Shown here: positions 16,559 through 37,827 of the stretch, one piece after another
Layout: every line of letters begins with the position of its first letter
Position numbering within the stretch: the stretch's first letter is position 1
From: Cryomorpha ignava
GTDB taxonomy: Bacteria > Bacteroidota > Bacteroidia > Flavobacteriales_D > Cryomorphaceae
Direction of reading: 5' to 3'
Assembly (NCBI RefSeq): GCF_010686655.1
Contig: NZ_JAAGVY010000001.1
Coordinates: 62,001-126,000, forward strand
Length of the DNA stretch: 64,000 nucleotides
Made by a program: the position numbers and the translations under genes
Notes under the pieces: generated by a model
What the model was told of the DNA's origin: nothing
What the model saw: the letters and a program-made list of their open reading frames with translations, nothing else
Database searches by the model: none

Positions 16559-17573
16559 GGAAGCGATAAATATTGAACGCTTTATAAATGGCGGAATGGA
16601 TGCGGGAGAGCGAACTGGTTTCGAAGCCCGGATGGCCAGTGATCCGTTTTTGGCAGAAGCCGTGGACGGTTTTCTGCAAGACCCCGCTGCGCTTTATGAT
16701 TTGCCAATTTGCAGCGCTGTTAAAATTAACTGGTGGTGGTCTATAGTTGGGGCTGTTGCTGTGGCAACGGTTTTTCTCACAATTCCAAATAGGATAAGTG
16801 AGATTCCGGGATCTTCATTTTCCAGAGTACGTACTGTAAATATTGATTTGGAGAAAGTCGAACTGCAATCTCAAGAACAAACAACACCCGTATGGAACAT
16901 CGAGCTCGATAATACAATTAAAAAAAGTGGAGTTACACCAGTTTGGGATGAAAACCATTCTCCTAATTTGCTGACGGCTGATTTTGTTGATTCAAAGTCG
17001 GCAAAGCCCATTCTCAAAATTGAGTATCCGAAACTTAAAGTGGATGAGATGATTCTTTATGTTCTCGATCTGAAGGTCGTTAAAAGCAAACTCATAGAGG
17101 TAAACAAACCGGAAATTGATTTATCGGAATTAACCGATTTCACACCTGCTAATTTTTCAACAACCATTGCTTATAAGCGCTCCAAGCAATATGAAGGTAT
17201 TTTTCCAGAACCTAAGACCGAGACTTACATGGATAAACTCGAATCAGGTTTGCGCTATTTCAAAGCTGAAGATTACGTCAAAGCTTTAAATGTGTTGTCG
17301 AACCTTTTAATTGAAAACAATCAGGATCCGAATGCACAGTTTTATTCAGCACTAAGCCATTACCATTTGGGTGATTATCAGATGGCAGAAGCCGGTTTTG
17401 AACAAATGGAAAAATTAGCAACACTTAGTTTTGCTCCGGAATCGGAATGGTATCGAGCTTTGAGCTTGCAAAAGCTGGGCAGAACTGACGAAGCTCGTGA
17501 CTTGCTTTTGGAGATTGCTGATGATGGTGGGCATTATGCGGAAAGGGCTATGGTGTTGCTGGAGAAAGAGTGA
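16551..17573 (+). CDS. Membrane protein with zinc-less anti-sigma-like N-terminus and periplasmic TPR (putative anti-sigma)
   Basis: The 340-residue protein has ~60 cytoplasmic residues (INIERFINGGMDAGERTGFEARMASDPFLAEAVDGF), which resemble the ASD-like start of Bacteroidota anti-sigma factors. One transmembrane helix follows (WWWSIVGAVAVATVFLTIP). The outer domain ends in tetratricopeptide-like helices (~230-335: LESGLRYFKAEDYVKALNVLSNLL, AQFYSALSHYHLGDYQMAEAGFEQM). By position (8-nt overlap with the ECF sigma) and topology it is probably the cognate regulator. The TPR part could bind the plug-only protein encoded first in the operon. Anti-sigma function is inferred, not shown by a signature motif. 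Confidence 0.75.
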   Translation: MDKEAINIERFINGGMDAGERTGFEARMASDPFLAEAVDGFLQDPAALYDLPICSAVKINWWWSIVGAVAVATVFLTIPNRISEIPGSSFSRVRTVNIDLEKVELQSQEQTTPVWNIELDNTIKKSGVTPVWDENHSPNLLTADFVDSKSAKPILKIEYPKLKVDEMILYVLDLKVVKSKLIEVNKPEIDLSELTDFTPANFSTTIAYKRSKQYEGIFPEPKTETYMDKLESGLRYFKAEDYVKALNVLSNLLIENNQDPNAQFYSALSHYHLGDYQMAEAGFEQMEKLATLSFAPESEWYRALSLQKLGRTDEARDLLLEIADDGGHYAERAMVLLEKE

Positions 17574-17610
17574 TGCCAATAACACAAAGCCTTCTCTAAT
17601 TCCAAAAATC

Positions 17611-18756
17611 ATTCGTGCATTAGTGGCAAAGAAAAAGCGCCGAAGGCGCTAAAAAATCTTGCCACGAATGCACGAATAAAAATGCGTGGACTAACATTTA
17701 TCCTTTCGGTTGAATTATAAATCACAATATAAATTACCTTCAACAAAGCTCTCTCCGATTCCAAAAATCATTCGTGCATTCGTGGCAATAAAAACGTGCC
17801 GAAGGCGCGCCCCAAATAAAGTAATCAATTAGAAAATTATAAAAGTCTAAATGAGTTCCATCAATCTTCCTTAAATTAGAGAAAACATAACCAAAATAAG
17901 TAGAAATGGAACACCTAAAATATAAAGAAGAGAGCTATGTAATAATCGGCAAATGCATGGAAGTCCACAATAACCTTGGCCCGGGATTTCTGGAAATAGT
18001 TTACAAGGATGCTCTGGAGTATGAATTTTATACTGCCGATATTCCCTATGAGCGTGAAAAGAAGTACGAAGTAAATTATAAAGGAATTATATTACCGCAT
18101 AGCTTTTACGCGGATTTTGTGGTTTTTGACAAGATTATTTTAGAAGTCAAAGCTGTAAGAGCAATGCCCGACGAGTATATCGCCCTATCCATTAATTATT
18201 TAAAAGTTTCTGGAAATGAATTGGCTCTATTGGTGAATTTTGGAGAGTTGCGATTAAATTCTAAACGGATAGTATTCTAAATTACAATACCACTTATGGC
18301 GCTTAAAAAGGTAGCCACGAATGCACGAATAAAAAATGCGTGGATTACAAACCAAACTTTCTGATGAATTGAAATCAGTAGTTGAATCACCTTCCACATA
18401 GCTCTCTCCAATCACAAAAATTATTCGTGCATTCGTGGCAATAAAAAGCGCCGGAGGCGCTAAAAAAGGTAGCCACGAATGCACGAATAAAAAATGCGTG
18501 GACTACAAACTAAACTTTCTCCTGAATGGAAAATCGAAATTAAAATCACCTTCACAAACCATCTTCAAACAACAAAATTCATTCGTGCATTAGTGGCAAT
18601 AAAAAGCGCCGGAGGCGCTAAAAAAGGTAGCCACGAATGCACGAATAAAAAATGCGTGGACTACAAACTAAACTTCCTCCTGAATTGAAAATCAGAATTT
18701 AATTCGCATTCCACAAAGCTCTCTCCAATCACAAAAATTATTCGTGCATTCGTGGC
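17611..18756. repeat. Tandem ~158-bp palindromic repeat array, five copies, one carrying a gene in its loop
   Basis: Each copy contains a left arm ATTCGTGCATTCGTGGC, a small GC hairpin GCGCC-gga/gaa-GGCGC, and a right arm GCCACGAATGCACGAAT, followed by ATGCGTGGA and ~80 bp of shared spacer. Left arms begin at 17611, 17770, 18423, 18581 and 18740. Right arms begin at 17661, 18314, 18472 and 18630. Spacing is 158-159 bp. In copy 2 the left arm (17770) and right arm (18314) are separated by the GxxExxY gene, which sits where the central hairpin loop should be. Copy 5 keeps only the left arm and hairpin and abuts the sucB stop codon. Confidence 0.9.
17906..18280 (+). CDS. GxxExxY protein
   Basis: The 124-residue protein has the family signature GPGFLEIVY (GxxExxY) plus a PD-(D/E)XK-like pattern: YADFVVFDKIILEVKA (Asp, then Glu-x-Lys) and the closing stretch LLVNFG with ELRLNSKRIVF. 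The family resembles small nuclease folds and is abundant in Bacteroidota; no experimental function is known to me. Here the gene lies between the two halves of a long palindromic repeat unit and is transcribed independently of its neighbours. That arrangement suggests a selfish or repeat-maintaining element rather than a housekeeping gene. The start at 17906 is preceded by an A-rich leader (AAAATAAGTAGAA). Confidence 0.88.
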   Translation: MEHLKYKEESYVIIGKCMEVHNNLGPGFLEIVYKDALEYEFYTADIPYEREKKYEVNYKGIILPHSFYADFVVFDKIILEVKAVRAMPDEYIALSINYLKVSGNELALLVNFGELRLNSKRIVF

Positions 18757-18764
18757 AATTAAAA

Positions 18765-18777
18765 GCGCCGAAGGCGC
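18765..18777 (-). terminator. GC hairpin at the end of sucB
   Basis: GCGCC-gaa-GGCGC, the central hairpin of repeat copy 5, sits 3 bp beyond the sucB stop codon and is followed on the minus strand by TTTTAATTGCC. It may act as the operon terminator, so the repeat array could have been recruited for that job. Confidence 0.5.
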
Positions 18778-18779
18778 CC

Positions 18780-20123
18780 TTAAAGCCCCAACAAAACTTC
18801 AGCAGGATCTTTAGCTCCAAAAAGCATTTTCTCCGGCTGCTCAAGCATCTCCTTCACTTTTACCAAAAAGCTTACAGATTCTTTTCCATCAATAATTCGG
18901 TGATCATAAGAAAGTGCCAGATACATCATCGGCAATATAACCACTTCGCCATTTACAGCCATCGGTCGATCAACGATATTGTGCATACCCAGAATAGCCG
19001 ATTGTGGCGGGTTAATAATAGGTGTGCTCATCATCGATCCAAAAACACCACCATTGGTAATTGTAAAGGTACCACCCTGCATCTCATCAATGCTGATTTT
19101 CCCATCGCGGGCTTTGATTGCAAGGCGCTTAATCTCCGATTCTATTTCGGCAAGGCTCATCTGCTCTGCGTTGCGCACTACAGGAACCATAAGCCCTTTT
19201 GGTGAGCTTACAGCAATTCCAATATCAGCGTAATTATGGGTTATCATATCTTCGCCATCCATCATCGCGTTTACAGTCGGAAACATATTTAACGCCTCTG
19301 TTACGGCTTTGGTAAAGAATGACATAAAGCCAAGTCCAACACCGTGATTTTCTTTAAAAGCCTCTTTGTATTTGGTACGCATGTCCATAATCGGCTTCAT
19401 ATTCACCTCATTAAAAGTGGTGAGCATAGCCGTTTCGTTTTTCACACCTACCAGGCGCTCTGCAACTTTTCGGCGAAGCATCGACATGCGCTTTTTCTCT
19501 GTGTCGCGTGTACCGCCCCATCCGGCAGCAGCCGAAGTATCAAAACCACCAGCCATTGCACTTACAACATCCTGCTTGGTAATTCGACCATCAGGACCAG
19601 ATCCTTTTACTTTATTGGCCGGAACATTGTTCTCGTCCATCATTTTCTTGGCCGATGGAGAAGGGTGGCCTTTTGCGTACGATTCTTTTTCTTCCGGTTT
19701 CTTTGATTCAGAAGATGCTTTTTCGGGTTTTGGCTCTTCCTTTTTCTCTTCTTTCTTTTCAGCAGGTTCTGCTGTCACTGACTCTTTTTTAGACGCATCA
19801 GCTTTTGGCGAAGACTTTACTTCTTCCGATTTCTCTTCCGGCTTTTCCTTCTCATCTGTTTTTGCGTCTCCTTTTCCTTCTGGCTTTGCCGCATCAGTAT
19901 CAATTAAACACACTACCTGACCTACCGCCACAGTTTCGCCTTCTTCTGCTTTAAGCTGCACTACCCCGGCCACTTCTGCAGGAAGCTCAAGAGTAGCCTT
20001 ATCAGAGTCAATCTCTGCAATGGGTTGATCTTTTTCTACGTAGTCGCCATCGCTAACCAACCAGGCGGCAATTTCAACTTCAGATATGGATTCGCCCGGA
20101 CTGGGCACTTTCATTTCAAACAT
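18780..20123 (-). CDS. sucB: 2-oxoglutarate dehydrogenase E2, dihydrolipoyllysine succinyltransferase
   Basis: The 447-residue protein has a lipoyl domain (1-75; the lipoylated Lys is in [13 protein letters not shown]) and a long Glu/Lys/Pro-rich linker (~90-155). The peripheral subunit-binding domain is at ~160-195 ([32 protein letters not shown]). A catalytic acyltransferase domain follows, ending in [16 protein letters not shown] with the active-site His and Asp. It transfers succinyl groups to CoA in the TCA cycle. It lies 5 nt downstream of sucA on the minus strand. The E3 gene is not in the window. Confidence 0.95.
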
Positions 20124-25310: not shown

Positions 25311-25853
25311 ATGCAAGAAAAACTTATTCCAGCTATATTAGAATTAGAATCAGATGAATACGCCGACTTTTATAAGGAATACATCTCAAATATCCCAGGC
25401 GGCACCTTACAAGATATTTTAACCGCCGACCTCACTAAATGGGAAGCATTATTTAAAAACCTTACCGATGCTGAAGGTTTAAAAGCTTACGCTCCCGGCA
25501 AATGGACTGTGAAGGAAATGATTCTGCATTGTATAGATACTGAAAGAATATTTTGCACCAGAGCTTTGATGATTGCCAGAGGCGAGACAAAAAGCATCTC
25601 CGGCTACGACCATGAATTATACGCCGCCCATTCTAATGCAAACGACCGCTCTATAGAAAGCCTGAAAACAGAACTCCTTGCCCAGCGCCATTCTACCCGC
25701 ACATTGTTTGATACATTCTCAAATAGCGATTTGCAAAAAGCCGGTGTGGCAAACAACAATAAACTATCGGTAAGAGCTATTGCCTATATTATTCCCGGTC
25801 ATTGTATGCATCATTTTAAAGTGCTTCGGGAGAGGTATGGGGTTAGTTTTTAG
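25311..25853 (+). CDS. DinB-family four-helix protein
   Basis: The 180-residue protein has the DinB/YfiT pattern: WTVKEMILHCIDTERIF with one metal-binding His, and the C-terminal HCMHHFKVLRERYG carrying the HxxxH pair. Members bind a divalent metal; some are thiol-dependent transferases, and most are uncharacterised. It stands alone, divergent from the M61 peptidase. The substrate cannot be told from sequence. Confidence 0.85.
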   Translation: MQEKLIPAILELESDEYADFYKEYISNIPGGTLQDILTADLTKWEALFKNLTDAEGLKAYAPGKWTVKEMILHCIDTERIFCTRALMIARGETKSISGYDHELYAAHSNANDRSIESLKTELLAQRHSTRTLFDTFSNSDLQKAGVANNNKLSVRAIAYIIPGHCMHHFKVLRERYGVSF

Positions 25854-26235
25854 TTCTTGGTTTTTAGTTCTTGGTGTTTGGTGTTGGGTTTTCGCAGTCG
25901 CCAGGCTTTTAGCTTGGGGACTAATCGTCCGCCGGGTTCTCTGGGGAAATGTTTAATTTATTTCAATAGATCAAGGACTATATCCATTCATTAACTCCAT
26001 TAAAAATCCTGGCGAGACGCCGGAGTAGACTACCCTCGCGGGACGCGAGCGTGTGCGTCAGGAGCGAAACCTAAGAAATTCTCATCCCAAAAACCAACGA
26101 CCGAAGGGAGCCCGTATGGGGAACTAACAACCAAAAACCAATCACCAAAAACTCACACCGAACACCAACGTCCGAAGGGAAGCTCGAACTGGGAACTAAC
26201 AACCAAAAACTAATCACTAAAAACTAATCAAAAAC
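25854..26235. repeat. Non-coding stretch of degenerate direct repeats
   Basis: No ORF is convincing here. Motifs of the kind TTAGTTCTTGG / CCAAAAACTAATCA recur. A ~70-bp unit (CCAACGxCCGAAGGGA ... AACTAACAACCAAAAAC ... ACTCACACCG) is present twice, at about 26094-26160 and 26165-26242. The second copy overlaps the last codons of the NifU-like gene, so the unit seems to have duplicated from that gene end. Confidence 0.6.
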
Positions 26236-32397: not shown

Positions 32398-32439
32398 ACT
32401 CAATACGCAATACTCAATACTCAATACTCAATACTCATT
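32398..32439. repeat. Heptanucleotide tandem repeat (ACTCAAT)6
   Basis: Six consecutive 7-bp units, with ACGCAAT as unit 2 and ACTCATT as unit 6. It lies in the gap between murI and the Skp/BamA operon terminator. Confidence 0.85.
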
Positions 32440-32455
32440 ATCAAAAGTACAAAAC

Positions 32456-36935: not shown

Positions 36936-37827
36936 ATCAATTGCGGGCTGCAAATGTCTGAATTTTAGATCAGATCAGAAAACGAAATTTTTCGTGCTGG
37001 TTTTAACATGTTTGCCGGGCTAAACTTCCGGTTGCTGATTTAGTAAAATGCTTACAGAAACCAATGCCTTGTGCTAAACTTGTAAAAGTACGATTAATTG
37101 TATTAGAAGGGATAAAGAAATAGAAAAGCCGTAAGAATATTAACAGAATAGGTTTTTATTTTCTGAAAAGAGCTGGAAAACGCCTTAAGAAATGCGTGGG
37201 TAGCAACGATGTGGAGCTAAGAATTTGGTGTATGGAAAAATACCTGGATTAGTGTAAATCATACTCAAAACTTGTGTGGTAGCATCTCCTGGTACCGAAA
37301 TCCAGTGCCGCTCAATTGCAAACTACTGTCATTCAATCCTTCCGCGCACCCCCGACCCCTTCCATACAGACTCCCAAATGGTCGAAAGGATAGTTTTCGC
37401 CGCACACATTTCGACTAAGCATTTCGACAGGCTCAATAACCACTCAATGCATCGCATTATCGTTCCGTGAAAAGCTTCATTTTAGTTATGCTAAATAATA
37501 GCATATTCATGAATAAAATTACTCCCGTGTATAATCTTTGCGGTTGCGCTCTTTCTGCATCCGACTAGGTTTTTTGCCGAGAGGAAAGCACAGGCGCGGG
37601 AAGGCACTGTTGTGAAGCTATCCTTAAGCTCCAAATATCCAAAGTCAAATTTCACTAAACATGTATCAAGTGATTAGTTAGACCACAGTAAATCCTTACG
37701 GACAAGGCTTTCTATCCAAAACTATTGATAACCTATTAAATAAAAAAGCTAAAGCTAATCCTTTCTGAAAAGCCTCTCTCGACTAGAGACTAGAGACTAG
37801 AGACTCGCGACTAGAGACTAAACGCTC
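36936..37827. other. Long intergenic region with repeat fragments
   Basis: About 890 bp with no convincing gene. Around 37327-37461 it has fragments of the same GC-rich mosaic seen at 54.8-55.1 and 61.4-62.4 kb (CCGCACACATTTCGAC, CTCAATGCATCGCAT). It ends in the heptamer array at 37781-37822. Confidence 0.5.
37781..37822. repeat. Heptanucleotide tandem repeat (GACTAGA)6
   Basis: Six consecutive 7-bp units. Unit 4 is GACTCGC and unit 6 GACTAAA. It lies 5 bp from the stop codon of the last PorP/SprF gene. Length and design match the array at 32398-32439. Confidence 0.85.

Follow-up and report, generated by a model that had tools for sequence, protein, structure and literature searches.

The 64,000-nucleotide stretch of the Cryomorpha ignava genome analysed here (the window) contains, between a gene that ends at position 17573 and the minus-strand gene at 18780–20123, which presumably encodes the E2 subunit of a 2-oxoacid dehydrogenase, a cluster of tandem repeats (17584–18778, plus strand, delimited from the sequence and the open reading frames) with a small plus-strand gene nested in it (17906–18280). 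This gene encodes a 124-amino-acid protein of the GxxExxY family, assigned by profile match and predicted fold to the PD-(D/E)XK nucleases of the RecB/Cas4 type. The repeat units are about 158 nt long and consist, in order, of a left arm, an AT-rich segment, a GC mini-hairpin, another AT-rich segment and a right arm. In copy 1, the left arm ATTCGTGCATTAGTGGC, the reverse complement of the words (17611–17627, plus strand), is followed by the mini-hairpin GCGCCGAAGGCGC (17637–17649; sequence and folding) and by the right arm GCCACGAATGCACGAAT, with two CACGAAT words 8 nt apart (17661–17677, plus strand). The arm search places the left and right arms of copy 2 upstream and downstream of the gene (17770–17786 and 18314–18330), those of copy 3 at 18423–18439 and 18472–18488 and those of copy 4 at 18581–18597 and 18630–18646, the last two copies also being recognized by folding; copy 5 is a left arm alone (18740–18756), for a total of five left and four right arms, all listed on the plus strand.

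The sequence CGTGCATTNGTGGC has nine exact matches in the window, all at 17614–18756, five forward and four reverse, and 11 matches when up to 2 mismatches are allowed, compared with a mean of 0.97 and a maximum of 4 in shuffled sequences. From one left arm to the next, the distances between start positions are 159, 653, 158 and 159 nt, the long interval arising because the gene segment adds about 490 nt. The spacing of 158–159 nt that the initial annotation attributed to all five copies thus holds between the gene-less units, but not across copy 2, and the fifth copy lacks a right arm. The same annotation placed the gene in the centre of copy 2, which is correct and can be stated more exactly: the gene lies in the loop of this copy, within the mini-hairpin and with a GGCGC word on each side. 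The left flank of the gene segment ends with ...GCCGAAGGCGC, with GGCGC at 17804–17808, and the right flank restarts at GGCGCTTAAAAAGG, with GGCGC at 18298–18302 (both on the plus strand); the presence of this word on either side of the gene could be due to duplication or to microhomology. When folded in single-stranded form, the three gene-less units that are complete give hairpins with z-scores of –9.2, –10.5 and –7.5.

In the 5.0 Mb genome as a whole, counted for the word family of the window, CGTGCATTNGTGG is present in 22 copies, 9 in the window and 13 elsewhere (0 in the backwards control). The 13 further arms are all located on other contigs, nine in number, none of which carries a GxxExxY match. 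The cluster is most readily read as a CACGAAT-type unit that is expanded into a tandem array in the window, with the gene in one of the five copies. Some of the arms elsewhere in the genome are associated with other repeats: two loci (L015 and L027, on contigs C9 and C68) have a word arm that is interrupted by a short REP-like sequence, as would be seen if a second repeat system had inserted into it, and at L019–L021, on contig C12, window-type arms alternate with the palindrome ctcggggtcgataccccgag in a composite tandem repeat. The window itself contains other tandem repeats, at 25843–26230, 32398–32444 and 37781–37820, with periods of 7, 14, 21 and 72 nt.

The protein encoded within the cluster matches TIGR04256 (E = 1e-36, 125.9 bits against a cut-off of 35) and PDDEXK_3 (PF13366, E = 1.1e-32); the latter is its sole domain match, with no HUH Y1 transposase domain. 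Sequence search against solved structures gave no convincing match to the GxxExxY protein. The AF2 model, which has a pLDDT of 94.3, has as its best match in the PDB SSO0001 (Foldseek E = 1.4e-4; Z = 10.4, 3.3 Å over 98 residues), which we take to be a Cas4, followed by lambda-type exonucleases, AddAB and other PD-(D/E)XK enzymes. The window protein contains D70, E80 and K82; among 186 relatives, D70 is present in 185, and E30, E80 and K82 are invariant, although the motifs around these three residues, ExK among them, were selection criteria. The nuclease-like fold suggested by the initial annotation is borne out by the match of the model to SSO0001 and by these catalytic residues, and a single-domain PD-(D/E)XK nuclease of the RecB/Cas4 type is the prediction supported for the family. 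The QxxxY motif is nearly as well conserved (Q94 in 183 and Y98 in 184 of the 186 proteins); the window copy may be impaired or losing activity because it has L94 in place of the conserved Q. GxxExxY genes were detected in 122 of the 247 genomes of the phylum.

The association of these genes with repeats extends far beyond the window. The Cryomorpha ignava genome encodes five GxxExxY proteins, with a different word repeated on one or both sides of each gene (CACGAAT in the window, CGCAAAG at L002, and GATT- or TTAAG-type words at L001, L003 and L004), and for all five, the inverted repeat across the gene exceeds the best of 30 shuffles. In a pilot at 27 order-level loci, from which the fragmentary matches L041, L042, L043, L051 and L052 were left out, the inverted flanks of 15 genes beat the best of 30 shuffles, all five Cryomorpha ignava genes being among them. 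A family-wide test then took one gene per genome from 60 genomes of the phylum, in regions of about 20 kb, and compared the 500-nt flanks of each gene with one another to score inverted and direct repeats, with 1773 windows of the same shape from the same regions as controls. On either flank score, 46 of the 60 genes exceeded the control 99th percentile, compared with 1.6% of the controls. In a second set of 80 named loci collected by protein similarity, which leans to the AG class of words (see below) because it was found with AG-word proteins, 54 of 78 loci passed the flank test, compared with 2.1% of 620 controls, two loci (L224 and L234) having been dropped for their short flanks; the test was failed by 14 of the 60 and 24 of the 78 genes. 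This set takes in Planctomycetes, Acidobacteriota, Gammaproteobacteria and Ignavibacteria, each phylum outside Bacteroidota being sampled by single loci, with some records possibly misbinned (e.g. the Methanothrix MAG of L220). Restriction of the pattern to the Cryomorpha ignava genome or to its phylum is rejected, given that named loci of other phyla show arrays. Three GxxExxY units from distant lineages (L085, L087 and L206) occupy what seems to be the same junction, in front of an arsenate-reductase- or phosphatase-like gene, which looks like an old insertion or a shared transfer.

The flanking repeat consists of arrays of a 7-nt word, C[A/G]CNNA[G/T] (CACAGAG, CGCAAAG, CACGAAT and others), spaced by 8–11 nt, mostly 9 or 10, with a second peak of spacing at 19–21 nt, as though a word had been skipped. 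Within 300 nt, 35 of the 60 genes have an array of at least three words and 51 have one of at least two words; arrays of the former kind reach a density of 1.86 per kb in this zone and 0.017 per kb beyond 3 kb, and the reversed-sequence control yielded 0 triple and 6 double arrays. A chance origin of the repeats is rejected by the shuffles, the backwards genome control, the control windows and the density of arrays near the genes. The arrays are mostly in the sense orientation 5' of the gene and antisense 3' of it, and in many units, the upstream array ends between a few and a few tens of nucleotides from the start codon. Many gene units are solitary, each with an arm pair of its own. Of the palindrome described in the initial annotation, the inverted arms stand, but the functional unit is more an inverted array of spaced words than a simple palindrome.

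Across the phylum, triple AG-word arrays are present in 44 of the 247 genomes (2 in the backwards control) and triple AT-word arrays in 33 (0 in the control). With the genome of the window left out, the AG class comprises 43 genomes with both gene and array, 78 with the gene only, 1 with the array only and 124 with neither (Fisher p = 1.6e-14); the co-occurrence persists without the large family f28 (p = 7.5e-10), and 6 of 20,000 within-family shuffles match it. For the AT class, the corresponding value is p = 1e-6. The repeats are therefore not widespread in genomes without the gene, since 43 of the 44 AG-array and 29 of the 33 AT-array genomes carry GxxExxY, nor are the genes usually devoid of flanking repeats, as the two flank tests attest; the link between gene and repeat proposed in the initial annotation is family-wide. 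In the remaining array genomes (G193 for the AG class; G107, G186, G242 and G262 for the AT class), there is no PF13366 match above the cut-off; the gene may have been lost there, or another enzyme may keep the arrays.

The arrays vary between elements, and this variation is structured. Word labels were obtained for 165 of the 186 distinct proteins (138 AG, 22 AT, 3 GATT and 2 TTAAG; 21 without a label). On the tree of these 165 proteins, the word class changes 8 times, compared with a mean of 25.9 and a minimum of 22 for shuffled labels, and when the set is thinned to 66 proteins with less than 65% identity, 9 times, compared with 14.1 (minimum 11 in 1000 shuffles). The spacing code changes 33 times, compared with a shuffled minimum of 50; after thinning to less than 70% identity, the signal is weak (30 changes compared with 34.1, with 13 of 500 shuffles as low). 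The trees were built with FastTree from about 126 columns, and many of their forks are poorly resolved. For the 36 elements with at least three words on each side, the left and right arms of one element had spacers of equal length in 92% of 79 comparisons, compared with 32% between elements, whereas the letters of the spacers matched in 51% between arms and 34% between elements. Spacer length is kept while the letters drift, and therefore the pattern fits a spacing that is read by a protein rather than base pairing alone. In these comparisons, word and spacing behave as a code that is common to both arms and goes with the protein clade. One clade, with the GNGFQEVIYQRA motif, is found inside restriction-modification operons (L001, L038, L046 and L141), with GATT-type words nearby; in one example, the neighbours of the GxxExxY gene are genes for an N6 methylase on one side and Methylase_S (hsdS) on the other.

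Copies of the arrays without a gene are dispersed in some genomes. The genome behind L183, a very fragmented MAG of Pyrinomonadaceae (Acidobacteriota; G349, loci L400–L419), contains 143 arrays. Among the 100 of these that were listed, 55 have 8+8 spacing and 45 have 9+9 spacing, and the 41 convergent pairs comprise 20 of the 8+8/8+8 and 21 of the 9+9/9+9 type, with none mixed. The gene-less copies in this genome are each a separate element of about 100 nt, and the sequences around them are unrelated, as judged from comparisons of 9 and 10 elements (L407, which ends at a contig edge, was left out). The 9+9 copies share TTAGCC...GGCTAA ends with a gene-bearing unit of the same genome (L373); none of its three GxxExxY genes has 8+8 arms, though the 8+8 family is abundant. 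In another genome (G245), three gene-less copies share the arm sequences of a gene-bearing unit, in inside-out order.

Whole units also come and go at a fixed site, located between map and a methyltransferase gene in Flavobacterium, that could be parsed in 23 of 30 loci: 16 are filled, 5 are empty (17–25 nt) and 2 are reduced. In the filled sites, GxxExxY is the sole listed open reading frame of at least 100 amino acids between the two genes, with no known transposase such as DDE; of the 16, nine belong to one protein clade and have AG words, and the other seven belong to the window-like clade and are labelled AT. Because the five empty sites lack the arms as well as the gene, gene and arms come and go together. 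Comparison of empty and filled sites did not reveal a clear target-site duplication. It is difficult to account for the swapping of complete gene-plus-array units at a single location unless they are mobile.

The architecture of the unit, the association of gene and array, the match between code and clade, the gene-less copies with the same ends and the presence or absence at a fixed site are each apparent in the compared genomes. In our assessment, GxxExxY genes probably encode the protein of a small and widespread mobile system that resembles REPINs but relies on an unrelated enzyme. The unit would comprise the nuclease gene between two inverted arrays, in which a word of 6–7 nt is repeated two to four times with a spacing of 8–11 nt. 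The nuclease would recognize its own arrays by word and spacing, probably with one protomer per word, and would cut there, whereupon either the whole unit or two arrays without a gene would be copied by repair or replication into further intergenic sites. A nuclease of 124 amino acids that lacks DDE, HUH and recombinase domains is not known to join DNA alone, and host repair or replication would be the likeliest partner for completing the joining. We further lean toward the broader proposition that these units represent an unrecognized class of prokaryotic mobile DNA, in which a lone RecB/Cas4-type PD-(D/E)XK nuclease would use one protomer per word to read the code of words and spacings at its own ends, and would thereby spread itself along with miniature gene-less hairpins through Bacteroidota, Planctomycetota, Acidobacteriota, Gammaproteobacteria and others, as a parallel to RAYT/REPIN with an unrelated enzyme. 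If this is true, a common 'unknown' gene family gains a function and a mechanism, a large class of intergenic repeats is explained, and an enzyme class is added to mobile DNA; moreover, because word and spacing vary naturally and in step with the protein clade, the DNA-recognition code is open to direct testing.

Some of the same observations can be read differently. The arrays could be made by something else, with the GxxExxY gene invading the array hairpins as a homing-type nuclease that cuts them and is copied in at repair. The window gene, located in one of five tandem units and between the two GGCGC words of a mini-hairpin, fits such an invasion, as does the large excess of gene-less hairpins over genes in the Pyrinomonadaceae MAG. 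However, the five empty Flavobacterium sites, without arms and gene alike, do not contain the pre-existing site that in homing survives in empty alleles; the spacing code is common to the two arms of an element and is matched to the protein clade; and many gene units are solitary with their own arm pair. This scenario appears unlikely.

Alternatively, another transposase, such as a RAYT, might move the arrays in trans, with GxxExxY as a passenger or regulator. Genes for Y1 (RAYT-type) transposases are indeed present in all 12 genomes searched, that is, eleven AG-array genomes, including the one with arrays in which no GxxExxY was found (G193), and the window's own. Yet, none of the 30 Y1 loci has a word array (a few of these loci being weak Y1 matches), several are flanked by short GC-rich palindromes, which are repeats of another kind, and both word and spacing follow the GxxExxY phylogeny. 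RAYT as the cause of the arrays is rejected on the strength of these 30 loci, and movement in trans by another transposase in general seems highly improbable. The possibility that the arrays are operators or transcript structures for GxxExxY expression, in a non-mobile unit with a host function (DNA repair, defence or partnership with restriction-modification), draws on the proximity of the upstream array to the start codon in many units and on the one protein clade within restriction-modification operons (four loci tested). It is at odds with the dispersal of gene-less copies, the inversion of the arms on both sides of the gene, the filled, empty and exchanged states of one site and the lack of a convincing PADLOC match, and we consider it quite unlikely. 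Mobility of the nuclease gene together with its own arrays remains the preferred reading.

The arrays around GxxExxY genes appear to be undescribed in the open-access literature searched, where no description of them or of a link to GxxExxY was found; the family is named in PMC8934634, with no link to repeats in the part of that article available to us. A phage origin is rejected: the 35 pattern matches in viral contigs include no relative by tblastn, and there is no PHROG match. Membership in a known defence family is rejected as well, the only PADLOC match being a weak one, to a methyltransferase model (E = 0.024).

Among known systems, the Cas4/RecB-family nucleases (SSO0001, lambda exonuclease and AddB) share with the GxxExxY family the fold and the D, ExK and QxxxY residues; GxxExxY, however, is much smaller and is the sole gene inside repeat-bounded units. 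Insertion sequences and MITEs resemble these units in having inverted ends, a short internal gene and gene-less miniature copies; in contrast, the GxxExxY unit has no known transposase domain, DDE or other, its ends are word arrays with element-specific spacing, and it shows no clear target duplication. The PD-(D/E)XK homing endonucleases are small nucleases encoded inside mobile units, and GxxExxY is also a small PD-(D/E)XK nuclease inside a proposed mobile unit, but it was not seen in an intron or intein, it has cognate arrays of its own, and its empty sites are free of arrays.

The initial annotation drew the comparison with REP/RAYT. In the REPIN/RAYT systems, as portrayed in the accessible portions of PMC3116915 and PMC8266576, a small nuclease gene has its own flanking repeats, gene-less hairpin doublets are dispersed, and a genome can hold several groups, each with a cognate enzyme. 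The GxxExxY gene likewise has its own flanking repeats, and its gene-less inverted doublets are dispersed and form hairpins, so that the likeness in the way of working stands. Membership does not: the GxxExxY system is not part of REP/RAYT because the HUH Y1 enzyme that defines the latter is absent from the unit, and RAYTs have repeats of their own. The enzyme of the one is a RecB/Cas4-type PD-(D/E)XK nuclease and that of the other an HUH Y1 transposase; the one has inverted arrays in which a 7-nt word recurs with spacers in between, where the other has single palindromes; and both systems are found together in single genomes, each with its own kind of repeat. By analogy, RAYT/REPIN is the closest working analogue of the GxxExxY units.
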